Source: Alphaproteobacteria bacterium
GTDB lineage: Bacteria; Pseudomonadota; Alphaproteobacteria; BNTO01
Direction of reading: 5' to 3'
NCBI GenBank assembly: GCA_025996655.1
Contig: BNTO01000001.1
Location: 1-17,140, forward strand
DNA: 17,140 bases
A model generated the notes under the pieces. The model did no database searches and was not told the DNA's origin. It saw only the letters and a program-made list of their open reading frames with translations. Both the position numbers and the translations under genes were made by a program. Shown here in pieces: positions 1 through 17,140 of this stretch (its first letter is position 1; each line of letters starts with the position of its first letter).

Positions 1-3000
1 TCAAAACTCCCGTTCCTTTTAACGCCTTGAGCGACAACGTCTCTTCGGATTCCATTTTGGTTCCCTTTTTGAGTGTGAGCGACATTTCTTTTCCGAGGGT
101 ATATCCGGCATCTACCATTATCTCCCCTTCTTCAAGTGTGATGTCGGCTTGCTGCAGTGAGCTTTTCGCTTGAAAACGAAGGCGCCCCGCTCCCGTTTTG
201 AAAAGTTGGCCCATCCCTTGCACATAGCCTTTCCAGTTGGCTTCTCCCTCCGCAACGTTGAGCGTCACAGAAGAGGCGGGCGTCTTTTTGCAAAGCTCCA
301 GCGTTTGCGTCAAAGAAAAATCCGAAGGCACATTGAGTCGAACGGAATCAGCCAAAGAAAATCCGACGTCAGCGCCTAACACTCCTTCGCGGAAATTCCA
401 GGTCGACTTTCCTTCTAAGAGAATCGTTTTGGGGTTGTAAACGCTCGCGCTTCTTAAGTCGACATTTTGATCGATTACTTTCAAAATGCCCTTGGGAGAC
501 GTGCCTTCTGCCACGACATCGCTCGTCAAAATTTGCTGAGAGGAGGGGCCTCCCTTCAAAATGAGGAGCGGACTTTCTATGCGCCCACAGAACATCTGCA
601 ATTCGCTCGCATCTGCTTCTAAGGTGAGCTCCGGCGTCTTAATTTTCCCTTTTCCTAAGAGCGCTGAGAATGTCACGGGTTTCTTGAAGGAAAGAGTCGA
701 ATCTTCGGAAACTTGGAATTGAATGTCCATTTTGGGTTCCGATTCTTCTATTTCTAAGACGGACGCCTGAGAAAGAGTGATCTTAGGCGGCGCTTTTTGC
801 GTTGGGAGTTGCTTGAAAACCGCAGAATAACTCTCCAAATTCAAAACCGTTCCTCCGATAAAGACGCCCCCAAACACGACCGAAGCACCCTCCCCTTCCC
901 CGCCGCGCAAGGTGCATACGTACCCTCCGGCGTACACGGTTCCAAGGCCTTCCAAATGACGGAAAGTCGTATCGTTCCTCAGGCTCAGAGCGGTTCTTTC
1001 CTCTTTAAGACAGAGAGACATATTTTCAAATTCTGCCGAAAGCGTACGAGGCACCGTGACTTTCGCTCCTTTTTCAAGGACAAGAGACGAACAATGCGTC
1101 AGGTGTGGTAGGAGGCAGGAGCTGCTTCCTGAAAGCGTCAAAAGGCTCACATTTTGAAGAGTCCCCGAAAAGTCTTCCGCTTGCCCCAAGGTCCACGTCA
1201 CCTTGTGCCCCGTTCCATCTAATGTTCCTTTCCCTAAAAGCGTAGCTATCTTTTGATCGGCCCCTAAGGCGAGCGTTGCTTCGTCTTCTATCTTCAGCGT
1301 CAACGGCTCCTTCACTGACACACCGTCCTCAAGATTGAGCACCGTGCCCCTTTCAAGGATCCATGCGCTTTGCGTTTTGGCGCCTCCTTTCCAATGCCAC
1401 GTCCCATTTTTAAGAGTGACCGCTCCCGTTCCTTTTATATCGCCTTCAAAGGTTCGGGTTTGTCCTAAAAGATTGAAGGTGAACGGCACTGTGTGAATCA
1501 ACGTCCCCGATCCCTCGAGCACGCTTGCCGTTTCGGACGTTTGAAACGTGACCGTCGTCCCGGGTTCCGTCACGATACGCGTCCCCTCCAGCTCTCCTTC
1601 GGCTTCAAAGAAGAGCGCAGACTTTCCTTCCAGGCGAAGTGTCCCTTGAAACGCCTTGCGACCGCCGCCCCAATGCCATTTTTGAGCGCCCTTCAGCACA
1701 ATATTTCCTGCAGAAAAATCTCCAGAAAACACCGTGTCTTGACTCAAACTCTGAGAAAGCGTGAGCGTTTGCCCTTGAAGGAGAGCCTGACCTTTTCCGC
1801 TGACCGATGTAAGCGTTTGGGGGGATTCTATCCTCACTTGGCTTTCGGGTTCGTTCAAAACCAAGCTGGACTGAGGATTCAGTTGAACAGCCTCGGTCAC
1901 ATGGAGAGCTACAGAATCCGCCAAAATCCACGATCCCGTTGCCGACAAAAGGGCTGGCGCTCCCTCTTGGGTTGAATCCAACGTGAGCGAGCCTCCTCCC
2001 TTGAGAGTCAGCGGCGAAAAACTTACAATATCTCCGGAGAAACGCTGATCTTGGCCGTTTGTATCAAGCGTCATGCCTTTCTGGGCTTCCAAAATTCCTT
2101 CTCCCTCTAAGTGCGTGAAGCGCGCCCCTTTTTCAAAGACAAGGCGACTTCCTTTTTCGAGAAGAACGCCGTCCCAATCCGCGTCGAAAGGAACCTGCAC
2201 GCACAGGTTTTCTCCCACGTGGAGTTTCTTGAACGCATTTTTCCCACATTCTGAAATCAAGCGTACCGTCTTCATAGTGGGCCCCTTTCCTTCAAACGCG
2301 AGCGTCGCGGCATTCAAAAGAATGTTCTTGAAACTCTGACTTTCGCCCACCATCACTTTTAGATTGTTGTCGTTCATAGAAACGGTCCCCGTCCCCCGCA
2401 GGGCCTCAAATGTTGTAGCGTACGCAACCGACAACTGAGCGTCGGGCCCGATATCGAGAGCGCCCGTCCATTGCGCATTCCACTGTTCGTTTGTAACGGT
2501 CCATGCCCCTGTGCCCTGAAGACTCAAGGTTTTATTGCCTTCCAACGTCCCACTAAACTCTTGATTTTGATGGAGGGAGAGCGTGAGTTTATTTTGGGTT
2601 TGGATATGCCCCGCTCCCTCAAGTGCGCCCAAAGTCCCCTCTTTTTCGAGAACAAGGGTTCCTTCCTGAAGCAACAGCGTGGGCGCTTGGGTGAGTGCAC
2701 CCTTCAAAAGGAGACGACCCTCGCCCGCCTTCGTCAGCTGTTTTGCTCCGGTAAACTGAAGGGAAGCCACACTCAACGTCGTATTTTCAAGGATCTCTAA
2801 GCGTCCGGTTTCAATTGTGATTCCCTTAGAACGACTCCAATCTTTGTTGATCCGTAACGTTCCTTCCATCAGCGCGATGTCGCCCCCTATAAAGGGCTGT
2901 TCCATGTCTTCTTCATTTTCTTTAGCAATTTCCAAAACCGCATTCTGCGTCACGCGAATCGGACTTTTTCCAAAAGACGCCGTTCCTGTCAGAATCACGC

Positions 3001-6000
3001 TTCCGTCTTCAACGGTATACGTCCCATAGAAATTTTGATAATTTCCTCCGACGCTATACGTTCCTGCACCTCTTTTGATGACGTCGCTGTTTCCTTTCCA
3101 GTCTCCCGCAAAGGAAACGTCGCCCGAAACATTCAAAAAGACTCTTCCCGGACTTACGACCGTTCCAAAACCCGAAATACACATTTCCTGATCCGTCCCT
3201 TGCAGGGTCAAAAGGGCCCCTTCGGCTAAATCAATCGTTCCATAATTTTGTTCGTTCTTCTGTAGCGTCAAGGCTTGTAAGACATTCAGGGAACCGTCAT
3301 TCCTAACATTGCCACCCAAAACGCTTGCCCCGCTTAGAGTGAGAGCATAGCCTCTCCCGTCAAGGGTCGAAGACGGAGGTTCACTGATGACGTCTTTAAG
3401 CGTTTGGTCCGCGCTAAGAGCAAACTGAGCGTTGTTTTTTATAAGAACGGAACTGTCTTTCTCTAAGTGTCCTTCAACGCTTCCCGCTTCGATTTCCCAA
3501 TTCATTTTCGATGTGACTGGGGTCGCAAGAAGGAGCGCACCCGCTCCCGCCTTTTGAATAAGCCCCGTTCCCGCTATTGTCCCCGAAAAAGTGATATCTT
3601 TCCGAATGTCTAAGCGTAAGGCCTTCGCAACGTCAATATTCGCCTTCAGCTCCCCGCCTTCCCTAAGCATCAGAACGGGCTTTCCTGTCGAGGCAACAAT
3701 TTTAGAATTCTCATCGAGACTCTGCGGCTGATAGATGTCCAAATAGGTAGCATTTCCTTCGGAAATATCCCAGTCAAACAAACGAAACGTCGTGTTGGTT
3801 ACGTTCGCAGAAGGAGCCAAAACAAGTTTCCCATCCACATCCACATCAACATGGGTCATCGCCCCGCCTAAAGTAAGGGAACCTGTGCCCTTTGCTTGTA
3901 CGCTCACCGTTCCAGGTCCTTCCAAAGAATAATTAAAGGTACTCTCTTCCGAAGTCTTCCATGTCAGAGTTTTCTCGTTAAGACGGATCCCCGCATCCAA
4001 TAAATCTTCGGTTGCTTCCGTATCTGCGGAAAGAGTCTTTGTTTCGTTCGAAACAAAAACGCCGGGAGCAGGAAGCGGATTTCCATCGATTCCGAGAAGG
4101 GTCACGTTTTCTGCTGGGATAATTTGACCGGAAAAATTCTTCACGTTTTCTCCGTTAAGATAAAAGATCGCGTGCTCCACCGAAGCCGTCGTCTTCAAAT
4201 AAAGGGTCCCCTTCCCTTGCAAAATCCCGTCAAACCGATTGTTTTCCTCCGACAGCGTTAGGTCGAAGGAGCGCCCTCCTAATTTTAAGACGCCCTCTCC
4301 CGATAACCCTGCAATCGCTTGATTCCCTCTCACGTCGACCGTTCCCCCTCTTTCGAGCGTCAAGGTTTCTGCGGCGTTCAGCAAGGCGCCCTCTCCTAAC
4401 ACTAAAACGGCTGCGTTGCCGACAACAATGCCTTCGGTATGGGCTTTGGCTTCGTTGGAACCGTCCCAACGGAAGGTTTGTTCGCCTTGGAGCGTCAGCT
4501 TAAAGCCTTGAATATCGCCCGAAAAGATTTGAGCCCCTGCCTCATGAAGCGTCAGAGACAGCAGCGCATCGTCGGGGCTTTCTCCCTTCAAAAGCCCTTC
4601 CCCTTTCAAGCCCGTCAACGTTAAATTCTGCGGGACAAGAATTTTGCTATTTTTCCAAATATGGAACCGCGCATCGTCGGACATGTCGGAAGGAATCTCC
4701 AAAACGCCGTTTTCTTTCACTTCAAGTTTTCCATGGAAATCTGCGAGCGTTCCCGCCTCGAAAGCCACATTCCCAAAAACGGCCAAGCTGCTCTTCGCAT
4801 TGGCGACCAAAGGCGTAGCGATGGAGGACGCGCTTTGCAGATGTAAGGTTAACGTTTGATCGGCAAACGTCACCCTCCCCTGCCCCGTCAAGGTTTGGAT
4901 TTCTTGCGTCGACACAAAATCCAAAACTTGGTCTTGGGCCACAAAGAAGGACGTCTCTCTTCCCAAAATGGTCTGATCAGAAACAAGGACATGCCCATCT
5001 TCCAAACGCAGCGTCCCTTTCCAATTCTTCGCCCTTAAGCCTTGAAGCTTTAATTCCCCGCCGCCACTCAAGGAAAGATTTCCCGTTCCAGAAACATCAC
5101 CTTTCAGCGTCAAAGATTTGCCCGCCTCCAGCGCATCAAGCTGCATCACAATCCCCAAATCTTTTTGCAGAACCAAATCCACATTCATGGCTCGCGTTCC
5201 ATAGATCTGCCACAGCGCTTGTTCGGCCTCGACGTGGATCGCCGCTTTCACGCCATCCGCATAAATCCCAAGCACCGGCGCCGTTTCTTTCATGGTGACA
5301 AAAGTTTCGAGATTCCCGTGGACATTCAACGTTCCAGGCCCCAAAACGACGACATCTTTCGTCTCCGTAAAATCTGCCTTGAGCGTGAGAGCGCCGTTGA
5401 TGATTTGTACTTTCTTTATATTCACGCGGCCACTTAGCACCTGCTCGCCCTCCCCTTCTTTGCTTAAAAGACCCGCTCCTAAAAGATTTCCGGAAAAATC
5501 TCCCCCCTCTTCAAAAATTGTTAAACTCTTTCCTTCTAATAGTGTGAGTGTTCCTGCCCCATCGATGCCCTTCCAATACTGCGCGCCCGTCAGCGTGTAC
5601 GCAGATGAAGAACCGAGCGTCAAGATATGAGCCGGAGCATCATGTTGACCAACGGCCGCAACGGTCAAAGAGCCTCCATTTTCAGCAACCGTGATATTCC
5701 CGGTGAAATTTGTAAGGGGGCCCCTCAACGTTTGCGCCGCGCTTCCATTTTTAATCAGCGTTCCGTAACCAGCCTCCGCGCTGTTCAGCGTCCCTGAAAA
5801 ATCTCCATCGGCCGTACCATTCAGTGTCAACGTGCTGTCTTGCTTAAAGTCGAGCGTCCCCGTTCCGGCCAAAGAACCTGCCGAAAACGTTCCTACGCGC
5901 CCAATATTAAGAGCTGAAGAAACAGTTAGTCCTTCAGAAACATTCAAACTTCCCGTTCCGCCTGAAGTTCCGTTGTATCCCAAATGAACAGGATTTGTTG

Positions 6001-9000
6001 CTACCGACATAGTACCTGTGACATTAACAATTCCAACGGATGCTGCGGTGCTTTCATTGCCAATATGAAAAGCGGTTCCTGTATATCTAAGACCATTGAC
6101 AAAATTTAACGTTCCTTTCCCGGTATGCCCCACGCGGAAAGCGCCATTACCAAAGTATGTATCTGTATCTTTGACAGTGATCGATAAAAACCCGTCGCCT
6201 CCGTCATATCCCAAATAAAGAGTTGGGCCCATGACAACGCGACTAAGAACATAAATACTCGAACCTTCTGTCGTATTGAGATAAATGTCCTCTGTTAGCG
6301 TAAGACGCCCCCCCGAACTTGTAATTTTCCCTGCAAAAGGTGAAAGACTTGTCGTTTTCGTAGTAAGACTGTAGCCCTTCAAATCCAACGTCCCCGACCC
6401 CTCGAGCACACTTATTGTCTGATTCCCGCCTAATTCATAAGTCCCTTTTTCGCCAATGTTCACAAGGCCCTCACCCGAAACAGCGTTCACCTTCAAATAG
6501 CCCTCGGCTGCATCCGTTCCTATATGAAGCTTGACTTCCTTCGAAAATCCTTCAAGTTCAGGACTTGTTTTATCGGCAAATTCAACCGCGCCAAGCGTCG
6601 AACCGGGCTGTGTCTTAAACGTATGGTCTCCCTCCCAAAACGTCATCTTCCCCGAAGCGCCGTTCAGCATTCCGTCAAAAGATTCCGTTTCACTTCCCTC
6701 CATTAAGGTCAACGTATAGGTATTCATCGTCAATTCCCCAGGCCCCATGACGTATGTATACGCTTCCGACGCCGTTAGAGGATAGCCATCGGGATCAGGA
6801 ACATAAAGAAACTCAGGCCTCCCATCGGGCGTGCAATATTTTCCCGTAAAACTATTACTCCCCAGTATCGTTAACTTGTGCCCATCTCGGATAATGGTTC
6901 CGCTGCCCGAGAGATCGTAAACGGCTTGATTGCCCGAGAGCATATACGTTCCATCAACCGTAAGAGATCTTAGTGTTGGCGCAGCCCCTGTTATCAACTT
7001 TCCACTGAGAACTTTGACGTCCCCCGTGAAATCGGCTATCCCCTGTAAGGTTTGCACTCCCGCCGCATCATCCATAGTAATGACGCCGTCTCCCGAGACA
7101 TCCCCCAAATAAACTCCTCCCGCTCCTAGGATCGTTAGATTGTTACTGCCTAGGGCGAGCGTTCCTGCCCCATTGATTCCCTTCCAATACTGAGGACCCG
7201 TCATGGTATACGAAGAATAAACCGTTAATATATTCGCCGGAGCCACAGGTCGCGCCACAGCCGCCACCGTCATGGCCCCACCCTCTTCAGAAACCGTCAT
7301 ACTTCCTGCGAAATTTAGGAGCGCACCGCTCAAAGTCTGCGCGGAAGCTCCATTCTTAATAATCATCCCGTAATCGCTTGCAGCGCTGCTGAACGTTCCT
7401 GAAAAATTCCCGTTGGCTATCCCATCCAAAGTCAACGTGCTGTCTTGCAAGAAAGCAAAGGTTCCCGTCCCAGCCAAAGAACCTGCCGAAAACGTTCCGA
7501 CACGACCAATGTTAAGGGTTGAAGAAACCGTAAGGCCGCCCGAAACAAGCAAACTTCCTATTCCTCCTGCAGTTCCGTTGTAGCCCAAAGCCAGAGCTGC
7601 CCCTACCGTCGCGGTTCCTGTAACGTTAACAATTCCAACAGAAGCCGCACTGCTATCATCACCAATATGAAAAGCTGTTCCTACATAAGTAAGACCTTTC
7701 AGGAAATTTAACGTTCCTTTCCCGGTATGTCCCACGCGGAATGTGCCTGCGTTATAGTTTTGACAGCCACCACCAATAGATAAAAACCCTTCGCCCCCCC
7801 CATAGCCCAAAACAAAACTATAAGCCGCGCTATAGGCTGATCGGTCGAAATAATAGACACTTGAACCTTCTTTCGTATTAAGATAGGTATGCCCAATCAA
7901 GGCAAAGGTGCCGCTCGTAGCTGGACTCATAATTTTCCCAGCAAACGGCGAATCCTCCGTCGCCATAGTTATCAGCGTATTCCCTTGAATATTCACATCT
8001 CCGGCTCCCACAAGTTGCGCCCACTCTTGGTTTCCAGACAAAGTATACGTTCCGCCAACGGTTAATACGTTCGCTTTGGTGATAGCTCCCGTCTCTACGA
8101 CTGTCCCAGCATCGACCGTCAAATTTCCCGTAAATCCTGCAGGATTCCTTAAAATTTGCGTCCCTTCCGTTGTTTTGTGGACCGTTCCGCCACCTACGAA
8201 GGCCCCTTCATAACTTCCATCGCCTTGTAAGGTTAAGGTTTTCCCTCCTACGTCGACTCTCCCAGCCGGATTTGCCCCTTGAAAGGTGTTCCAAGTCTGA
8301 TCGCCTAAAATGTTATACGTTCCCTCAGAAACCGTAAGCGTCTTGGCCGAAACCGCCCCTACGGCCAACGTTCCCGACTCAACCGTCACATCGCCGGTAA
8401 AGTCTTTAAGCTCGCCTGAAAACGTTTGTGCCGCGTCTCCTAATTTTGTGATCAGGCCCGTTCCTGAAAGTGAGCCGCCATAGGCACCGCCTCCTTTGTT
8501 AAGGGTAAGATTGTTGGAGCCTAACGTTAGCGCGGCGCTTGCCTCCGTCCCTTCAATCGTCTCCCATGTTTGATTTCCCAACGCGCTGTAGGTTCCCCCG
8601 TTTAGGGTCAATTGGTTCCCTGAAACCGCGCGCGCCACCAGCATCCCCGCCTCGACGAGGATATCTCCTGCAAAACCTGCCAAGTTTCCTGAAAACGTGT
8701 GCGTTCCACTCCCAGCTTTCGTGATCCTTCCGATTCCTGAAACCGATCCGGTTGAAACTGTCGTCGCAGACCCAGCAAGAGCAAGCGTCCCTGCCACAGC
8801 CACGGGCCCGGCTCCCGTTAGCCCCGCCGAAGCATTTAACGTTCCTTTTGTAATGGTTATTGTGCCATTATTCGTCAAAAGCCCGGATGAAACCGTAAGG
8901 ACTCCAGGGGTAGAGGCTCCCCCCATAGTAAACGTTTTTCCTGAAGAAACCGTTAGGCCCGTCGCATGACTCGCAAGCAACTCGCCCGCCAAAACCGTGA

Positions 9001-12000
9001 CCATTCCGGTGAAGTTGGCAAGTGACCCTGAAAACGTTTGTTTGGCGAGCCCTTCCTTAAAGAGCGTCCCGTTCCCCACAGTTGAACTTTTAACAACGCC
9101 TGAAAAATCTCCGTCGGCCGTACCATTTAAAGTCAGCAGGCTGTTTTGGAGGAAATCAAGCGTTCCCGCGCCTGCTAAGTATCCCGCCGAAAATGTTCCA
9201 ACGCGCCCCACACGAATCGTGTTAGAAGTAATAAGTCCTCCTGTTACCGTTAGATTCCCTGTTCCACCATCGGTCGCGTTGTAGCCCAACTCAAGAGGTG
9301 ACACTAGCACCATATTTCCTGTCACATTAACCGTCCCCTCCGTCTCATTTGTCTTTTCATTCCCGATACGAAGAGGTACGGTATAGCCATAACCATTCTC
9401 ACAATTTAGCGTCCCTTTCCCAGTGTATCCTATGTAAAGGGATAGCAGATTAGTGTAAAGGGAGCCTGGGGTTCCAAAGGATAAGAACCCCTCTCCCCCT
9501 CCATATCCCAAATAGAGATTGTGATTTGCGGTATCACCCACCAACGTTTCAAAAGCATACACTCTTGAACCTTTTGCTGTATTGAAATAGGTATGCGCGA
9601 TCATAAAGACACCGCCACCTGTGGCTAAACTTATAAACTTCCCAGAAAAAGGAGACGCTGCAGACGACATGGTCCCCAGAATATTTCCTTGAAGATTCAC
9701 ATCCCCGGCTCCCACAAGCTGCGCCCAGGTCTGATTTCCGGACAAAGTATACGTTCCACCAACAGTTAATATATTCGCTTTGGTGATAGCTCCCGTCTCC
9801 ACCGCTGTCCCGGCAGCAACCGTCAGATTGCCCGTAAATCCGGCCGGATCCCTTAAAATTTGCGTCCCTCCTGTTGTCTTGTTGATGATTCCCGCCCCCG
9901 CTAGAGCCCCACGGTAACTCCCATCGTCTGTTAACGTTAAAGTCTTTCCGCCCAAATTAACCTTCCCCGCAGGATTGGTTCCATTAAAAGATTGCCATGT
10001 CTGATTGCCTGAAATGTTAAAGGTCCCACCGTTGATTTCGAGATCCCGAGCCGAAATCGCCCCTGCCGTCAGCGTTCCCGCTTCCAGCGTTATATTGCCA
10101 GTAAAGCCTGTCAGATTCCCCGAAAACGTTTGCACGTCTTCGCTTTCTTTTGTAAGCGTCCCCGTGCCTGAAAGCGAGCCGCTATAGGCGCCGCCGCCTA
10201 CAGTCAGATTGTTCGCGCCTAACGTTATGGCAGCAGTGGCCGACGCCCCTTCAACCTTTTTCCAAGACTGATGTCCTGATGCGATGTACGCTCCACCGTT
10301 CATGGTTAGCGTGTTTCCCGCCAAAACCGTGCCTACCGTCAAGGTCCCTAGGGCCAGCGCGATATTTCCTTTGAAATCTACCAAACTTTCCGTTAAGTCT
10401 TGCCCTACGCCTTGGTCAGCATTAATAAGTCCGCTCCCACGCACTGTTCCATTAAAAACCGCTGCCGTACTCGCATAAAGGCCGAGGGACCCTTCTTCTC
10501 CCACATCAAAACTCCCCGTTCCCGTTAACCCTCGCATACAGATCGGGCCCTTCGTAACCGTAATCGTTCCATAGTGCACGAGGGGGCCACCAAGGCAAAA
10601 ATGCCCCTCGGTAGACGCAGTTCCTACCGTTATCGTTTGCCCCAAAGGAAGCGTTCGCCCAGCTTTACTTGGTATGCTCACAAGCCCTTCGTCGTCATGA
10701 AAACTTCCAGTGAAATTCGTTACATTTCCGGTAAAATTTTGTACATAGGCCCCGGATTTCGTGATCAGCCCCGATCCGCTCAAGGCGCCGCTCCATGTTC
10801 GGTCCGTTGCTCCATTCAAAGCGAGCGCACCATTCACCGTAACAGGCCCAGCGCCGGCTAGCCCCGACTGCGCGTTGAGGGTGCCTTTTGTGAGGGTGAT
10901 GGTACCAGAATTTGTTAAAAGCCCCGCGACATTAAAAGTCCCAGACGTCGCTAAGGTCCCAATCGTAAGAATTTTCGCGGAAGAAACCGTGAAGCCCGCA
11001 GAATGGCTTGCACTCAAAGCTCCATTCTCAATGGTGACATTCCCCGTGAAATTTGTCAAGCTTTGCAAGAATGTTTGTGCCGCCGTTCCATTTTTTATAA
11101 GCGTTCCATAGCCGTTCGTTGAGCTTTTAATCAAACCCGAGAACGTTCCGTCGGCGGTTCCCGTCAGCGTCAGCGTACTGTTTTGTTTAAAGTCAATCGT
11201 TCCCGTTCCGGCGAGGTATCCCGCCGAAAATGTTCCGACGCGGCCAATATTAAGAGTGGAAGAGACGGTAAGGCCGCCTGTAACCGTTAAATTCCCCGTT
11301 CCTCCTGCGGTTCCGTTGTATCCCAAATCAAGACTTACGCCTAAGGTCATATCCCCAGTCACGTTAACTGTTCCAACAGAACCCGCTAGGTTTCTATTCC
11401 CAATATGAAGATATGTTCCCACAAAACTAAGCCCTCCTTCAAAATTTACCGTTCCTTTCCCTCCAGTTCCAACATACAAAGAGCGTTGCGTAATATTGGG
11501 ATCTGTTTTGACAGATAAGAATCCCTCTCCGCCCTTCACTCCTACAAAAAGATCCGTGTTCGACCAGCCAAGGCTATAAATGCTTGAACCTTCTACGGTA
11601 TTAAGATAAGTCGAACTTTCTGCTAGGGTAGCTCCCGACGCCAAAACAAAGGTGCCGCCTGTGGCTAAACTCGTTATCTTTCCAGCGAAAGGCGAATCTT
11701 CCGTCGCTCGGGTCGTCAGCGTATACCCTTTCAAATCCAAAGTCCCCGACCCTTCGAGCGCACTTATTGTCTGGTCCCCGCCCACTTCATAAGTCCCTTT
11801 TTCGCCCATATTTACCATGCCATCGCCAGAAACAGCGTCTACCTTCAAATAACTCTCGGTTGAAGCATCGCCCAAATTAAGTCTTGTTCCCGCCGCTAAC
11901 GTGACAGTACCAAGGATTGAGCCGGGTTGTGTCTTAAAAGTGTGAGCCCCCGCGAGAAGTTCAACACCACCTGACGCACCGCTCAGGACGCCTGAGAAAG

Positions 12001-15000
12001 ATTCCGTTTCACTTCCCTCCGACAATCTTAAGGTCGAGTCACCTAATATGAGCGTTCCTGTTCCCATGACGTACTTATACCTTCTCGCTTCTTCCGTAAA
12101 AGAATACCCTTGCGGGAAAGGGACCTCTAGATAGTCAACGTCCATCTTCCCAGTGAAATTATTTTCACCTGTTATTGTTAACATGTTGCCATTTCTAATA
12201 ATGTTTCCATTTCCAGAAAGAGCGGAGAATGTTTGATCTCCAGAAAGCATATAAGTCCCATTAACGGTAAGGGTTCCTGTTGTGAAAAGAGGCCCCGTTG
12301 TCAACAGGCCGTGGAGAACTTGGATATCCCCCGTAAAGGATGTTAGCTCCGTAAAGGTTTGCGCACCACTCGCATTATCCATGGTAATGACGCCACTCCC
12401 AAAAATTGCTCCCGAATAATCTCCGCCACTCCCCAAAATGGTTAAAGCATAATCTTCTAAAGTGAGCGTTCCTTGTCCGTTAACACCCTTCCAATACTGA
12501 GGGCCTGCCATCGTATACGCCGCAGAAGAACTTACGGTTAATATATTCGCCGGATTATAAGGCTGAGCAACGTCGGCAACCGTCATAGCGCCCCCATTTT
12601 CAGCAACGGTGATATTTCCTATGAAACTGGTCAGGAGGCCTAAGAAGTCTTGGGACTTCTCCCCTAATTTCGTGATGGTTCCGTCTCCTTCAATTTCGCC
12701 CTTATAGACAGATTCTGTCTGTCCCAACAGATTGAAGTTGTTGGTTCCCAACAAGACTTTCGCGGTCTCGGATGCGCCGGCCAGAAGCCCCCATGCTTGA
12801 TCTCCGGACGTGATGTACATTCCCCCGTCTACAGTCAAGAGGGTTCCTGCAGACACAACCCCCGCCGTCAACGTTCCCTTCGACACCGTTATATTGCCCG
12901 TGAATCCTGTGAGATTCCCAAGCGTTTGATCTTCTTCCCCTGCTTTGACAATCAGTCCTGTTCCTGAAAGCAATCCACTGTAGGTGCCGCCGCCTGTGCG
13001 AATGGTGAGATTATTCGCGCCTAACGTTAGCGTAGTGCCTGTTCCTTCAATCTTCGCCCAGGTTTGCGCCCCAGATGCCTCGTATATCCCGCCACTTACC
13101 GTCAACGTTCCGCCTCCAGCGGCTCCCACCTTTAACGTCCCTCCTGACACCGTTATATTTCCAGTAAATCCTGACAGCGTTCCTGAAAACGTTTGTGTCC
13201 CTGATCCATTTTTCGTAATAAGTCCTGTTCCTGAAAGCAATCCACTGTAGGTACCGCCGCCTGTACTTATCGTGAGATTTTGGGCCCCTAGCGCTAGCGC
13301 GGTGCCGGTTCCTTCAATCTTCGTCCAAGTTTGCGCACCGGATGTCTCGTATGTCCCGCCGCTCACCGTCAAGGTTCCACCTCCTAAAACGGCCCCCGCC
13401 TTTAACGTTCCTACTTCCACTTGTATATTTCCCACAAAATTTGTTAGGTCTCCTGCAAGAGTTTGAGTATTTGCGGCAAACGCTTTCGTAATCAATCCGG
13501 ATCCACGCACCGTTCCCGTGAAAGGCGCGGAGCCTCCTGCGAACCTAAGCTCACCGTCTGCCGCCACATCAATGCTCCCCGTTCCGGATAACCCGTTCGT
13601 ATGCATACAAACAACACCGTGCGTAATCGTAATCGCCCCATGGTTCACGAGAGGCCCGGGATTCAAGCAAAGCCCATAATCTATACTCGAAGTCTCAATC
13701 ACCACAGTTTTCCCGGCAGAAATCGTTAGGCCGTCAGCATGATTGACGCGTAGAATATACCCTTTCACAACGATATTTCCTGAAAAATCCTTCATCGATC
13801 CTGTAAATATTTGCTCACTGTTTCCCATTTTGGTAATTGTCTCTGTTCCTGAAATCGATCCGCTGTAGGTCCCGCCGCCTACGCTAAGGGTAAGATTATT
13901 CGCCCCTAACGCTATCGCGGCGGCGGCGTTTGTCCCAACAATTTTTGTCCACGTTTGTGCGCCTGTTGCGGTGTAGGTGCCACCACTCACCGTCAGTGTT
14001 TTCCCAGCAGAGAGCGCACTCGCCGTCAACGTCCCCGCGGACACCGTCATATTTCCTGTGAAACTTGCTAAAGACCCTGAAAACGTTTGTGTCCCTGATC
14101 CATTTTTCGTAATAAGTCCTGTTCCTGAAAGCGCTCCGCTGTAGGTGCCGCCGCCTGTGCTTATCGTCAGATTATGGGCCCCTAGCGTTAGCGCGGTGCC
14201 GGTTCCTTCAATCTTCGTCCAGGTTTGCGCTCCCGTTGCATTATACGTCCCACCGTTCACCGTCAGCGTTCCTCCTATCGTTATCGTACTCGTCGTCAAC
14301 GTCCCAGCTGACACCGTCATACTTCCTGTGAAACTTGCTAAAGACCCTGAAAACGTTTGTGTTCCCGATCCATTTTTCGTGATAAGGCCGCTTCCTGAAA
14401 GCACTCCACTGTAGGTGCCGCCACCCACACGGATCGTGAGATTTTGGGCCCCTAGCGTTAGCGCAGTGCCGGTTCCTTCAATCTTCGTCCAAGTTTGCGC
14501 ACCCGTTGCATTATACGTCCCACCGTTCACCGCCAACATTCCTCCCGCTGTTATTGCGCTTGCCGTCAACGTTCCAGCTGACACCGTTATATTTCCTGTG
14601 AAACTTGCTAAAGACCCTGAAAACGTTTGTATTCCTGATCCATTTTTCGTGATAAGGCCGCTTCCTGAAAGCGAGCCAGCGTAGGTGCCGCCTGTGCTGA
14701 TCGTCAGATTATAGGCTCCTAGTGTTAGCGCTGTGCCAGTTCCCTCAACCTTCGTCCAAGTTTGCGCACCAGAGGCCTCATATATCCCACCGCTCACCGT
14801 CAACGTTCCGCCTCCAACGGCTCCCACCTTTAACGTCCCTCCTGACACCGTTATATTTCCAGTAAATCCTGACAGCGTTCCTGAAAACGTTTGTGTCCCT
14901 GATCCATTTTTCGTAATAAGTCCTGTTCCTGAAAGCAATCCACTGTAGGTACCGCCGCCTGTACTTATCGTGAGATTTTGGGCCCCTAGCGCTAGCGCGG

Positions 15001-17140
15001 TGCCGGTTCCTTCAATCTTCGTCCAGGTTTGTGCACCGGATGTCTCGTATGTCCCGCCGCTCACTGTCAAGGTTCCACCTATCGTTATCGTACTCGCCGT
15101 CAACGTCCCAGCTGACACCGTCATACTTCCTGTGAAACTTGCTAAAGACCCTGAAAACGTTTGTGTTCCCGATCCATTCTTCGTGATAAGGCCGCTTCCT
15201 GAAAGCGCTCCACTGTAGGTGCCGCCTGTGCTGATCGTCAGATTATAGGCTCCTAGTGTTAGCGCTGTGCCAGTTCCCTCAACCTTCGTCCAAGTTTGCG
15301 CACCAGATGCCTCATATATCCCACCGCTCACCGTCAACGTTCCGCCTCCAACGGCCCCCGCCTTTAACGTCCCAGCGGACACCGTCATATTTCCTGTGAA
15401 ACTTGCTAAAGACCCTGAAAATGTTTGTATTCCTGATCCATTTTTCATGATAAATCCTGTTCCTGAAAGCGCTCCGCCGTAGTCGCCGCCCCCCACACGG
15501 ATCGTGAGATTTTGGGTACCAAGCGTGATGACCGCGGCAGCAGAGGTCCCGTTGATCCTTGCCCAGCCCTGCGCGCCGGACGCTTTGTATTCTACACCGT
15601 CCACCGTCAGTGTTTCCCCGGCAGAGAGTGCACTCGCCATCAACCTTCCCGCGTTCACTGTGAAATTTCCCTTAAAAGTTGTTAAATTTCCAGAAAACGT
15701 TTGCGTGGCGCTTCCGTTTTTAACAACCGATCCGTAGCTCGCTACCGCGCTGTTTAGAATGCCTGAAAAAGCTCCATCGGCCGTCCCATTCAAAGTCAGC
15801 GTACTGTCTTGGAGGAAGTCCAGTGTTCCCGTTCCAGCCAGGATATTCGCAGAAAATGCTCCGACACGACCAATATTAAGGGTGGATGTAACAGTAAGTC
15901 CTCCTGTAATAATTAAACTTCCTGTCCCGCCATTGGCCGCGTTATAGCCTAAATAGAGACAATTTGTCTCTACCGACATATTTCCTATAACGTTAACAAT
16001 TCCAACTGAATCCTGCGAGATCTCATTTCCGATATGAATCTGCCCGCCTTTATAAAGGAGATTATTTTCAAAATTCACCATTCCTTTTCCGGTATAGCCA
16101 ACGTAAAAAGCACCCGTATTGTAGGCTGAGCCTCGGATGGCTAGGAATCCCTCGCCACCCTCAACTCCAAAATAAGCCGTATTGCCATTTCGAGTAAATG
16201 ACGAAACCCTCGAGAGATTACTCGTATTAAAATAAGACGTACCATTTAATACGAAATCACCACTTGTAGCTGAAGCCACAAGACTTCCTGTAAAAGGAGA
16301 AGTTGCTGTGTGCGTAGTTAATGTGTATCCCTTCAAATCTAAAACTCCAGCCCCATCAATCGCGCCGATGGTCTGATTCCCCCCCACTTCGTAAGTTCCT
16401 TTCTCGCCAAGATGAACAACGCCTGAGCCCGAAACGACATTCACTTTTAAATATCCTTCTTTTGAATCACTTCCTACGTTCAGCGTTCCCGCTGTCAGCG
16501 CGGCTGTTCCAAGGACAGAACCGGCCTGTGTCGTGAAAGTATGAGGTCCAGTCAAAAACTTGATCGTCCCCGAGGCGCCGTCAAGCCTCCCCCAGAAAGA
16601 TTCTATCGGGCTCCCCCTTTCCAATACTAAGGTCAAATTGCCTAACGTTAATACCCCAGGCCCCAGAACGTACGCATAAGATTCTTCCGCTGCCACTAAG
16701 GAATACCCTTCTGGGGAAGGAACATAGAGGTAATTAATAAACTCTCCCGTAAAATTATCGTTTGTATATTGTAAATTATAGCCACCCGTAATAATGGTTC
16801 CACTCCCGGAAAGGGTTAAGAATGTTTGATCCCCTGAAAGAACATAAGTTCCATTGACGGTAAGGGTTCCCCCTGCTGGGATTGCCCCCGCTTTCACTGT
16901 TCCGTCGTCAAGTTGGATGTTCCCTGAGAAATTGGTTAGGTTTCCTAACGTTTGCGAGCTGTCCCCTTTTACAATAAGCGTTCCGGCACCGTAGATTCCC
17001 CTCCAATATTGGGGGGCCGTCATAGTGTAGGTCGCCGAAGAACTAACGGTAAGGACATTGGCAGGATCGTCCGGTTGAGCGACAGCCCCCACAATCATGT
17101 CGCCACCATTTTCATCAACAGTAATGTTCCCCGTGAAACT
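1..17140 (-). CDS. Giant repeat-rich autotransporter-type surface protein (internal fragment, both ends missing)
   Basis: One minus-strand frame is open across the whole window: 5,713 complete codons, with frame checks at about 3017, 8177, 11606, 13601 and 17138 all in the same phase. The product is rich in Gly, Thr, Ser, Leu, Val and Asn, poor in Cys, and made of short beta-strand motifs. The motif GTGLITKNGSGTQTFSG with FTGNITVSAGTL recurs throughout and is the PATR signature. A second family, with RVGHTGKGTLNF and LGYNGTAGGTGSL, matches T5SS/PEP-CTERM-associated repeats. Known proteins of this make-up are beta-helical passengers of type V secreted adhesins, exported by Sec and displayed on the outer membrane; that role is inferred here. 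No signal peptide, linker, beta-barrel, start or stop falls in the window, so the protein exceeds 5,713 residues. Most autotransporters have about 700 to 4,000 residues. It could instead be a PEP-CTERM-anchored or otherwise secreted giant. I am sure of the coding frame, fairly sure of the family, and cannot name the ligand. Confidence 0.93.
2..5539 (-). other. Degenerate C-terminal beta-helix region of the same protein
   Basis: About residues 3868-5713 of the fragment. The frame continues without a break, but the modules above no longer occur. Short-strand motifs still dominate, such as SGTGNLSLSGGGELKLQG, LTGQGRVTFADQTLTLHL, LSGEGVLKLGGRSFDLTL, IAGTGLIQKAGAGALLLATP and LKGTGVL at the window edge. 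Charged residues (Glu, Lys, Asp) are commoner than in the upper region. Two stretches are less repetitive: around 3740-3830 (RLFDWDISEGNATYLDIYQP) and around 3990-4090 (PLPAPGVFVSNETKTL). I see no beta-barrel, alpha-helical linker or stop. It is probably an older, diverged part of the same beta-helix. Confidence 0.8.
1190..2660 (-). repeat. Weak 80-105-residue repeats with W-x-W motifs
   Basis: Within the C-terminal region the pattern L-x-G-x-G recurs near 1220 (LLGKGTLDGTG), 1510 (LEGSGTLIHT), 1790 (VSGKGQALLQG), 2085 (LEGEGILEAQKG), 2385 (LRGTGTVSMND) and 2615 (LEGAGHIQTQN). It is often paired with a tryptophan strand: GTWHWKGGAKTQ, QKWHWGGGRKAFQG, GAWTVTNEQWNAQWTG. Steps are roughly 230-315 nt. 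No close nucleotide identity remains, so these look like old relatives of the ~90-residue S unit. Confidence 0.6.
5540..5713 (-). repeat. V block copy 1, at the boundary of the repetitive domain
   Basis: About residues 3810-3867. It reads FTGNITVAENGGSLTVAAV, GQHDAPAHILTLGSSS, AYTLTGAQYWKGIDGAG and TLTLLEGKSLTI. It is the most altered V copy (APAHILTL for xPANILTV, GAQYW for GPQYW). It is the last recognisable shuffled module before the degenerate C-terminal part. Confidence 0.75.
5745..6290 (-). repeat. L block copy 1
   Basis: About residues 3617-3799 and the last L block in protein order. It reads DIYLNTTEGSSIYVL, LYLGYDGGDGFLSIT, FRVGHTGKGTLNFVNG, FHIGNESTAASVGIVNVTG, LGYNGTSGGTGSLNVSEG and LNIGRVGTFSAGSLAGTG, ending GYGTLIKNGSAAQTLRG. 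Its second half is nearly the same as L block 2, including IGNESTAASVG versus IGDDSSAASVG. Confidence 0.8.
6361..6957 (-). repeat. JK block copy 1
   Basis: About residues 3395-3594. It begins DGTYMLSGNQAVYDLSGSG and contains the loop FLYVPDPDGYPLTASEAY and TYVMGPGELTM, then ESFDGMLNGASGKMTF and HTFKTQPGSTLG. A unique segment with SPELEGFSKEVKLHIG precedes EGYLKVNAVSGEG, IGEKGTYELGGNQTISVL and LDLKGYSLTT. It is the longest of the three JK copies. Confidence 0.77.
7155..7314 (-). repeat. V block copy 2
   Basis: About residues 3276-3329. It reads FAGSMTVSEEGGAMTVAAVA, RPVAPANILTVYSS, YTMTGPQYWKGINGAG and TLALGSNNLTILG. It keeps PANILTV and GPQYWKG but has Arg where other copies have Gln before the first proline, and it is slightly shorter around YSS. 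It connects L block 2 to JK block 1. Confidence 0.77.
7345..7892 (-). repeat. L block copy 2
   Basis: About residues 3083-3266. It begins IGHTYLNTKEGSSVYYF, then FVLGYGGGEGFLSIGGG, FRVGHTGKGTLNFLKG, FHIGDDSSAASVGIVNVTG, LGYNGTAGGIGSLLVSGG and LNIGRVGTFSAGSLAGTG, ending DYGMIIKNGASAQTLSG. Unlike L3 and L4 it is followed by a V block, not an H block. This shows that the L block's C-terminal side is a junction where modules are exchanged. Confidence 0.8.
8000..8699 (-). repeat. D block copy 1: three diverged PATR units
   Basis: About residues 2814-3047. Anchors are LGNQTWETIEGTEASAAL (near 8570), LGDQTWNTFQGANPAGRV (near 8290) and LSGNQEWAQLVGAGDVNI (near 8030). It carries LITKLGDAAQTFSGELKDF and HKTTEGTQILRNPAGFTG. 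The match with D2 is strongest in the last unit, around GTVVETGAITKANVLTVGG, which is almost unchanged in the other copy. Confidence 0.8.
8700..9000 (-). repeat. H block copy 1
   Basis: About residues 2714-2814. It reads LLASHATGLTVSSGKTFTMG, GLLTNNGTITITKGTLNAS, GLTGAGPVAVAGTLALAG and VSGIGRITKAGSGTHTFSG. It follows L block 3 and precedes D block 1. It is close to H3 and lacks the cysteines of H2 and H4. Confidence 0.76.
9050..9594 (-). repeat. L block copy 3
   Basis: About residues 2516-2697. It opens AHTYFNTAKGSRVYAFETL, with LYLGYGGGEGFLSFG, LYIGYTGKGTLNCENG, LRIGNEKTNETEGTVNVTG, LGYNATDGGTGNLTVTGG and IRVGRVGTFSAGYLAGAG. It ends in GNGTLFKEGLAKQTF. A cysteine replaces the usual phenylalanine in TLNFENG. 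It sits exactly 1,704 bp from L block 2. Confidence 0.8.
9690..10400 (-). repeat. D block copy 2: three diverged PATR units
   Basis: About residues 2247-2484. Three S-like units are anchored by SGHQSWKKVEGASATAAI (near 10270), SGNQTWQSFNGTNPAGKV (near 9990) and LSGNQTWAQLVGAGDVNL (near 9735). Between them lie LTKESEDVQTFSGNLTGFTG and INKTTGGTQILRDPAGFTG. The block corresponds to D1 at an offset of 1,704 bp, so the two arose as part of a larger duplication. Confidence 0.8.
10440..10690 (-). repeat. H block copy 2, with cysteine pair
   Basis: About residues 2151-2234. It reads STEGHFCLGGPLVHYGTITV, TKGPICMRGLTGTGSFDV and AAVFNGTVRGSGLINAD. Cysteine codons lie at 10595-10597 and 10538-10540, 18 residues apart. 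It stands in tandem with H block 3 and accounts for the 105 extra codons between L3 and L4 compared with L2 and L3. It resembles H4 more than its neighbour H3, as the shared Cys pair and GTVRGSGLI show. Confidence 0.72.
10770..11040 (-). repeat. H block copy 3
   Basis: About residues 2034-2124. It reads LSASHSAGFTVSSAKILTIG, GLLTNSGTITLTKGTLNAQ, GLAGAGPVTVNGALALNG and WSGALSGSGLITKSG. It directly follows L block 4, as H block 1 follows L block 3. It has no cysteine at the two positions used in H2 and H4. Confidence 0.75.
11085..11612 (-). repeat. L block copy 4
   Basis: About residues 1843-2019. It starts STYLNTVEGSSIYSLG, then LFVGVKGGEGFLSVK, LYVGTGGKGTVNFEGG, LHIGNRNLAGSVGTVNVTG, LGYNGTAGGTGNLTVTGG and LNIGRVGTFSAGYLAGTG, ending in GYGTLIKNGTAAQTF. 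The repeated (V/L)GxGGxG and SVGTVNVTG elements are those of the T5SS/PEP-CTERM-associated family. It lies 2,019 bp (673 codons) from L block 3. Confidence 0.8.
11713..12265 (-). repeat. JK block copy 2
   Basis: About residues 1626-1810. It begins NGTYMLSGDQTFSALSGNG, contains the loop YLEVPFPQGYSFTEEARRY and KYVMGTGTLIL, then ESFSGVLSGASGGVEL and HTFKTQPGSILG. It closes with ESYLKVDAVSGDG, MGEKGTYEVGGDQTISAL and LDLKGYTLTT. Compared with JK1 it lacks a short stretch after GSxLGxV, where JK1 has ADKTSPELEGFSKEVKLHIG. Confidence 0.77.
12462..12630 (-). repeat. V block copy 3
   Basis: About residues 1504-1560. It reads FIGNITVAENGGAMTVADV, AQPYNPANILTVSSS, AAYTMAGPQYWKGVNGQG and TLTLEDYALTILG. 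It is the first complete copy in protein order, and a PATR unit (ITMDNASGAQTFTEL) then leads on to JK block 2. It keeps the QP and PAN residues seen in V block 4. Confidence 0.78.
12640..13499 (-). repeat. S array, part 2: three further ~90-residue PATR units
   Basis: About residues 1214-1500. Anchors lie near 13321 (SGAQTWTKIEG), 13051 (SGAQTWAKIEG) and 12785 (SGDQAWGLLAGASETAKV). The first two are near copies of units in part 1. The third is diverged and leads to TKLGEKSQDFLGLLTSF and V block 3. Its codons and motif are closer to the D-block units than to the homogenised array, so it probably escaped recent conversion. Confidence 0.82.
13101..13382 (-). repeat. Near-identical direct repeat, copy A (partner 14799-15080)
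   Basis: This segment of S units 8 and 9 matches 14799-15080 at all but four of 282 positions by my count (positions near 13119, 13328, 13333 and 13368 differ). It shows that the two halves of the S array, now separated by H block 4, exchanged or copied sequence recently. Confidence 0.85.
13500..13779 (-). repeat. H block copy 4, with cysteine pair
   Basis: About residues 1121-1213, interrupting the S array. It reads ILRVNHADGLTISAGKTVVI, then YGLCLNPGPLVNHGAITIT, HGVVCMHTNGLSGTGSIDV and SAPFTGTVRGSGLITK. It shares the order L/V-N-H/N-G-x-I-T with three other H blocks. Two cysteines, at codons 13667-13669 and 13607-13609, are 19 residues apart and have counterparts only in H block 2. In a beta-helix this spacing is about one rung, so they could face each other on neighbouring rungs (inference). 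Confidence 0.7.
13780..15704 (-). repeat. S array, part 1: seven tandem ~90-residue PATR units
   Basis: About residues 479-1120. Each unit runs LTVSGTYETSGAQTWTKIEG, TGTALTLGAQNLTI, GGGTYSGALSGTGLITKNG, SGTQTFSGSLASFTG and NITVSAGTLTA. The TW-TK anchors fall near 15556, 15285, 15018, 14751, 14486, 14216 and 13945, so the step is 267 or 270 nt. The unit nearest the N-terminus is degenerate (AQGWARINGTSAA), and so is the last (KIVGTNAAAAIALG). The inner five are very alike down to synonymous codons, which points to recent duplication or gene conversion. The lost codons (GGTYSG for GGGTYSG) explain the 267 versus 270 step. Confidence 0.88.
14799..15080 (-). repeat. Near-identical direct repeat, copy B (partner 13101-13382)
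   Basis: Compared with 13101-13382, offset 1,698 bp (566 codons), I count four differences in 282 positions, including a perfectly matching run of about 208 bp. The similarity stops abruptly at 15080, where the next bases instead match 14275 onwards. Such identity across synonymous sites indicates a recent copying event, not selection on the protein. Confidence 0.85.
15711..16242 (-). repeat. L block copy 5 (T5SS/PEP-CTERM-associated repeats)
   Basis: About residues 300-477. It begins at SYFNTSNLSRVSSF, passes YFGVEGGEGFLAI, FYVGYTGKGMVNFENN, HIGNEISQDSVGIVNVIG, YLGYNAANGGTGSLIITGG and LNIGRVGAFSANILAGTG, and ends with TLTLNGTADGAFSG and SYGSVVKNGS. The evenly spaced (V/I/L)G(Y/H/N)xGxGG(T)GxLxxxGG motifs are typical of the T5SS/PEP-CTERM-associated repeat. 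This is the most diverged of the five L copies: it has SNLSRVSSF where others have xEGSSIY. Confidence 0.78.
16316..16859 (-). repeat. JK block copy 3 (PATR strands plus conserved Pro/aromatic loop)
   Basis: About residues 95-275. It opens with NGTYVLSGDQTFLTLSGSG and continues to a loop reading YLYVPSPEGYSLVAAEE and SYAYVLGPG. The strand ESFWGRLDGASGTIKF follows, then HTFTTQAGSVLG. The second half (EGYLKVNVVSGSG, HLGEKGTYEVGGNQTIGAI, LDLKGYTLTT) is a beta-helix segment ending just before L block 5. Two other JK blocks share this order and the same junction with an L block. The loop is the only part that does not read as regular short beta strands. Confidence 0.75.
16976..17140 (-). repeat. 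V block copy 4 (truncated by the window edge)
   Basis: This is the first block in protein order, about residues 1-55 of the fragment. It reads FTGNITVDENGG, then AVAQPDDPANVLTVSSS, then ATYTMTAPQYWRGIYGAG. The same pattern (ENGG, QPxxPANxLTVSS, YTMxxPQYWKGxxGAGTL) occurs in three further places in this window. It is flanked by PATR strands and looks like a PATR rung with a conserved 15-20 residue insertion carrying Gln-Pro and Pro-Ala-Asn. Its upstream part is cut by the window edge. Confidence 0.75.

Follow-up and report, generated by a model that had tools for sequence, protein, structure and literature searches.

We found that the window analysed here, a 17,140-base stretch comprising the whole of contig BNTO01000001.1 from the alphaproteobacterial metagenome-assembled genome (MAG) GCA_025996655.1, lies within a single giant gene, both ends of which are outside the contig. 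The best overall explanation, to which we assign a probability of roughly 0.62, is that the gene encodes a very large beta-helix of the passenger type, exported by Sec and lacking a translocator of its own, which probably serves as an extended adhesin or coat. The window covers the central portion and the greater share of the C-terminal part of this Holosporales-type gene, and the product would be exported by Sec, as the signal-peptide-like N-termini of two paralogues and three homologues suggest, and fold into a very long right-handed, passenger-like beta-helix. Its C-terminus resembles a passenger base, after which a linker and barrel would be expected, but the protein ends there. Crossing of the outer membrane, if any, would depend on a second protein acting in trans, either Omp85 or TolC (both encoded, with the link to the giant protein hypothetical), or on another route. 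Outside the cell the protein would form a rod, acting most likely as a stalk-like adhesin or as a coat towards a eukaryotic host.

Upon recomputing the translation, we observed a single stop-free frame of 5,713 codons (~582 kDa) on the minus strand of positions 2-17140, in agreement with the initial annotation, which had described a minus frame open over 17,139 nt with neither end visible. Each of the other five frames is broken by 168-406 stops and stays open for 69-168 codons at most. Across mononucleotide shuffles (n = 100) the longest open stretch was 216 codons, against the 5,713 codons found, which rules out a chance open frame. An RNA-family reading of the window was dropped, as no family matched at gathering thresholds. 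The assembly (1,225,391 bases in 318 contigs, 92% completeness) has contigs apparently numbered by falling length, and the window contig exceeds the 20 other contigs compared in size. When the 302 further residues of a second protein described below are added, the product reaches at least 6,015 amino acids (aa; ~614 kDa) without its N-terminus. We consider it almost certain that this is a real giant gene under selection. The initial annotation had placed it at the extreme of known surface proteins, which overstates the case, since the listed homologue matches alone include PATR proteins as long as 7,978 aa; the portion of PMC11573180 consulted puts the number of proteins longer than 5,000 aa in all organisms at over 41,000, mostly eukaryotic.

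The features of the window are the following.
2..17140, minus strand: internal part of the giant frame (5,713 codons, ~582 kDa), both ends open, by frame translation.
2..5572, minus strand: C-terminal region collinear with the G003, G007 and P0003 homologues at 23-25% identity by alignment, with 302 aa more in P0002.
2..10783, minus strand: translation matched residue for residue by P0002 of a second contig, the start-codon residue excepted, by protein comparison.
5665..7313, minus strand: long diverged repeat pairing with 11014-12626, by DNA repeat comparison, as are the other long and exact repeats below.
7398..8608, minus strand: long diverged repeat pairing with 9099-10306 at 68% DNA identity.
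9099..10306, minus strand: long diverged repeat pairing with 7398-8608.
11014..12626, minus strand: long diverged repeat with 65.6% DNA identity to 5665-7313; its subpart 11034-12277 also pairs with 15660-16870 (ratios of non-synonymous to synonymous change, dN/dS, of 0.26 and 0.24).
15660..16870, minus strand: long diverged repeat pairing with 11034-12277.
13120..13327, minus strand: exact 208-nt repeat, copy 1, a possible assembly crossover point.
14818..15025, minus strand: exact 208-nt repeat, copy 2.
13127..15445, minus strand: seven PATR (PF12951) motifs over the curated cut-off by Pfam, with TIGR02601 in agreement.
15641-15727, 8636-8725 and 8360-8452, minus strand: weaker PATR (PF12951) motifs by Pfam.
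14015..15490, minus strand: tandem array of a 270-nt (90-aa) repeat, 5.5 copies with 80% matches, by repeat analysis.

The protein belongs to the PATR family, scoring 81 bits against PF12951 (cut-off 27) and 94.7 against NCBIfam TIGR02601 (cut-off 19.85). Upon comparing repeats within the window contig (C1) and with three further contigs of the same genome (C71, C145 and C27), we observed that all 63 listed DNA repeat matches lie in equal codon phase, including 26 of 26 inside C1. Synonymous change per site exceeded non-synonymous change in 13 of 13 repeat pairs, hand-picked from the longest matches and partly overlapping, and thus not independent; dN/dS was 0.18-0.35 in 12 of them and 0.62 in the remaining pair (59 codons). 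The internal repeats are mostly under purifying selection. The earlier proposal of a selected giant gene is thereby supported: the in-phase repeats, the low dN/dS values and a collinear C-terminal region of ~2,250 residues in two genomes and one metagenome protein speak for it. The frame is not kept in every copy, a paralogue on C27 being cut by an insertion sequence.

Next, we investigated the C-terminal end. A protein homologue search returned P0002 (3,896 aa), encoded on a different contig of 11,823 bases, which, apart from its start residue, is identical to residues 2,120-5,713 of the window protein and then continues for another 302 residues; it may stem from an independent sample or from a second assembly of the same reads. 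We also examined nine relative genomes of the order, all of one family and all drafts of 74-92% completeness. Among these, the homologue on G003:C108 (protein P0158; Holosporales MAG, isolate Nc350_bin178) runs for 3,828 codons and then stops, and that on G007:C23 (likewise Holosporales, isolate Pcl387_bin139) for 2,895 codons and then stops. Both align collinearly with P0002 in their C-terminal parts, over 2,200-2,350 columns at 23-25% identity (34% mutually). For the metagenome protein P0003, collinearity extends over 3,724 columns with G003 (36%), 2,794 with G007 (37%) and 2,248 with the combined window and P0002 sequence (24%). The C-termini of all four proteins fall within seven alignment columns. 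The end of the gene is thus shown by stop codons in two homologues and, for P0002, by alignment with them.

The initial annotation had expected an autotransporter barrel (PF03797) or a PEP-CTERM signal at the low-coordinate end, and neither is present where P0002 ends in alignment with the two observed stop codons. Pfam scans of the P0002, G003 and G007 C-termini returned no barrel, PEP-CTERM or RTX part over the cut-off, and the precomputed Pfam entry of P0003 is PF12951 only. By eye, the four aligned C-termini lack a PEP-CTERM motif, transmembrane segment or basic tail, with no Pfam match over the cut-off in the three scanned. No RTX family was found in the window and these three C-termini at E<=0.1, and the protein does not class as an RTX adhesin. 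Furthermore, PF03797 was found in none of the nine family genomes at E<=0.1, whereas the Escherichia coli and Caulobacter controls were positive; this joint absence is less limited by the 74-92% completeness than each single-genome absence. The PATR repeats and the passenger-like beta-helix model would suit a classical type Va autotransporter with its C-terminal barrel past the contig end, and the giant PATR proteins P0008 and P0009 of the same search end, by eye, like outer-membrane barrels. However, P0002 passes the window end and stops without a barrel, G003 and G007 have stop codons at the aligned place, and the domain is missing from the nine genomes while the controls carry it; a barrel past the contig end is therefore refuted, barring errors that truncated P0002, G003, G007 and P0003 all at the same point, and we regard it as highly improbable. 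The protein is very probably barrel-less. Because the C-terminal PF03797 barrel was looked for and is absent, it falls outside the definition of a type Va autotransporter; the product may still work like a passenger.

The predicted fold is consistent with a passenger. AlphaFold predicts an all-beta structure for window 13994-15223, with a predicted local distance difference test score of 91.7 and 49 strands in 410 residues, and the structural matches include the barrel-less beta-helix exoproteins EtpA and HMW1; the structural alignment rows (VIA-align) come only from chains ranked by Foldseek (40 and 194). Sequence searches against solved structures gave no match, and the beta-helical passenger typical of type Va is seen on predicted models only. 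On these models a very long right-handed beta-helix resembling an autotransporter passenger is very likely, with high confidence for the repeats and moderate confidence for the C-terminus. The C-terminal ~430 residues are predicted to resemble an autotransporter passenger base, and the aligned ends show that the protein stops there. A beta-helix rises 0.48 nm per rung; with three strands per rung, the rod would roughly be of the order of 100 nm long.

Upon examining the N-termini, we observed that two paralogues in the same bin, on C71 (1,137 codons up to the contig end) and C27, start with closely similar hydrophobic N-termini. The homologues G002, G003 and P0003 have a longer N-terminal extension and a hydrophobic core, followed by a common 'LSAD'. 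Of the Sec signal peptide anticipated at the high-coordinate end, the window itself holds none, its gene start being outside the contig, and hydropathy alone identifies hydrophobic-core, signal-peptide-like N-termini in C71, C27, G002, G003 and P0003. Based on these sequences, Sec export is quite probable. The paralogues on C71 (2063-2137) and C27 (1395-1469) also have ~50 upstream bases in common, which by eye include a stretch resembling a promoter, TATAAAATAG / CATAGAATAG, as well as AGAAGGGA, which resembles a ribosome-binding site. Directly upstream of the C71 giant gene, at C71 1003-1917, is a DDE transposase gene (PF13359). The C27 paralogue (G000:C27 1-1409) comprises its signal-peptide-like start and ~427 codons before the insertion sequence, a multi-copy element that is IS630-like by eye.

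We next considered the translocators and export components. Since the protein carries no translocator itself, any passage through the outer membrane would require a trans-acting partner or another route. Omp85 was found in nine of nine genomes and the TolC-type PF02321 in eight of nine, TolC also being present in genomes without a detected PATR gene. One such partner would be the TpsB barrel of a two-partner (type Vb) system, with the giant protein as its exoprotein, a reading that overlaps with our preferred explanation; the matches to EtpA and HMW1 fit it, as does an Omp85 protein with POTRA domains encoded on G000:C10. Four N-terminal fragments of the paralogues and homologues, however, have no TPS domain listed by Pfam at E<=0.1 (the N-terminus of the window gene itself being outside the contig), and ShlB PF03865 was found in none of the nine drafts, in a weak search in which no control genome passed the cut-off. 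The C10 protein, moreover, matches POTRA PF07244 and Omp85 only, and we take it to be more like BamA or TamA. A type Vb system is improbable on this evidence. This POTRA-bearing, possibly TamA-like Omp85 gene is preceded, within G000:C10 189-4113, by genes for an ABC-ATPase and a permease-like protein that by eye look like FtsE/FtsX.

Alternatively, the giant protein could remain in the periplasm as an envelope scaffold, or be released through Sec and TolC, in either case without surface display. The lack of an outer-membrane domain in the C-termini and the presence of PF02321 in eight of nine genomes fit such a fate, and the consulted portion of PMC9992710 suggests a two-step Sec and TolC route for Hepatincola. 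Nevertheless, the TolC link to the giant protein is hypothetical, TolC also occurs where no PATR gene was detected, and a rod of the order of 100 nm would be large for the periplasm, and we consider this outcome unlikely. Returning to the barrel-less passenger-like beta-helix, it is somewhat favoured that the protein reaches the outside, and contact with a host is a tentative function. It is doubtful, albeit conceivable, that a lineage of host-associated Alphaproteobacteria without PF03797 barrels has kept giant autotransporter-type passengers and exports them via a separate translocator, an autotransporter split in trans unlike the known two-partner systems.

Support for the assembly differs along the window. 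The second contig covers window 2-10783, whereas window 10784-17140 is known from C1 alone and contains, inside 13120-15307, exactly repeated stretches of 208, 93 and 81 nt. The end of the C27 insertion sequence is also found on C5, C10, C14, C15 and C16 (five of the 17 contigs examined, C2-C18), and this multi-copy element may be part of the cause of the assembly fragmentation. Contigs C14, C15, C16 and C27 end about 125-127 nt into this insertion sequence. An assembly k near 127 would account for that, in which case the 208-nt repeat was resolved by read pairs or guessed. Repeat order and copy number in window 10784-17140 are thus provisional, the 208-nt repeat exceeding the ~126-nt overlaps at the insertion-bounded contig ends. 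Since the repeat matches are all in phase, the frame is probably open even under a wrong join.

A chimera in which at least two paralogous genes were fused at exact repeats, compatible with the preferred reading for window 10784-17140, would draw on these repeats, on the two N-termini (C71, C27) and on C145 in the same bin. It is quite unlikely, given that a second contig agrees with window 2-10783 and that relatives have genes this large, with one homologue of 6,327 aa and incomplete ones of at least 3,828 and at least 2,895 aa. No match better than E 0.39 in other bin contigs was found for the 200 bases at each window end, the last 300 bases of C71 do not overlap the window end, and the 302-aa C-terminal extension of P0002 was not found in the bin, the one genome of the genus searched. 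C145 1-3150 is open throughout (1,050 codons) and has 82% DNA identity to the window over 1.1 kb with different flanking repeats, which looks like segment shuffling between paralogues.

When examining the spread of the gene, we found PATR in four of the nine family genomes. Four members with a collinear ~2,250-aa C-terminal region and a common end make up a Holosporales giant family; the window gene has relatives in three genera of one Holosporales family, plus one further metagenome protein. The latter, P0003 (6,327 aa on a 24,385-base contig), is likely complete, with both ends within the contig, judging from the lengths, its C-terminus and its first residue, a V aligned with the GTG start of G002. 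The N-terminal (C45) and C-terminal (C108) pieces of G003 may belong to one gene or to two. A contig scan of the genomes with a pattern from window 2-4240 found no relative, and one with a C-terminal-alignment pattern recovered only the G003 and G007 contigs; wide spread was thus unseen within two peptide patterns. The homologue search from the G003 C-terminus returned only itself, despite the related P0003, indicating limited sensitivity. The aspartyl-tRNA synthetase from C27 shows 73% identity to a Holosporales bacterium protein (P0046) and 67% to one of Paracaedibacteraceae (P0065), with other matches up to 76%, which points to a Holosporales-type alphaproteobacterium as the host of the gene. 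In the consulted text of PMC12887300, Pcl387 is a source of MAGs from lower termites, and in that of PMC11909080 a Paracaedibacteraceae clade is frequent in animal guts, termites especially; a gut association of the window's lineage would be by analogy with these relatives.

Compared with known systems, the closest counterparts are P0003, P0158 and the G007:C23 protein, which share with the window protein the beta-strand repeats, the collinear C-terminal region, the missing barrel and the same end, P0003 also having a signal-peptide-like start; they differ in being only 23-25% identical and in the repeat content of the N-terminal half. Type Va passengers (pertactin, UpaB, Ssp and an IcsA fragment) are alike in the predicted right-handed beta-helix, the PATR motif and the passenger-base-like C-terminus, whereas the window gene and the nine genomes lack the PF03797 barrel and the window protein is several times longer. 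The Chlamydiia protein P0008 (6,709 aa) has repeats of the same kind and a similar length, with 28% identity across 53% of the query, but its C-terminus is barrel-like by eye, unlike that of the window gene. Apilactobacillus kunkeei Giant1-5, as described in the consulted part of PMC12863079, are likewise 3,000-8,000 aa long, located at the surface, partly beta-solenoid and encoded in a small symbiont genome; they differ in coming from a Gram-positive bacterium and in having the beta-solenoid predicted N-terminally.

Among the titles listed by literature searches on Holosporales with autotransporter or termite, none concerns this gene family. The consulted portion of PMC5911502, on Holospora, describes a search for PF12951 and a single PF03797 protein, perhaps a false positive, in H. 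curviuscula, and does not mention a giant gene. According to the consulted text of PMC11909080, Holosporales are mostly obligate protist associates with poorly known host-interaction factors and the type VI system is the most credible candidate; in its main text 'autotransporter' and 'adhesin' occur zero times. The giant gene takes up at least 1.4% of the 1.2-Mb genome, and this share, the purifying selection between repeats and the C-terminal region conserved in three genera make it a strong candidate for a main envelope structure. Its passenger-like end without a pore poses the question of how a ~6,000-residue beta-helix would cross the outer membrane without a barrel in cis.

Finally, the relatives' contigs with giant pieces (G003, G007) carry further large genes with signal-peptide-like starts by eye, at L087 11653-13806 and 17472-20000, L088 3047-5095 and L090 4398-6458, all four without a Pfam match at E<=0.01. 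In the genome of the window, G000:C10 4233-7679 encodes a protein of 1,148 aa in which, by eye, a long linker rich in serine and ankyrin-like repeats can be made out.
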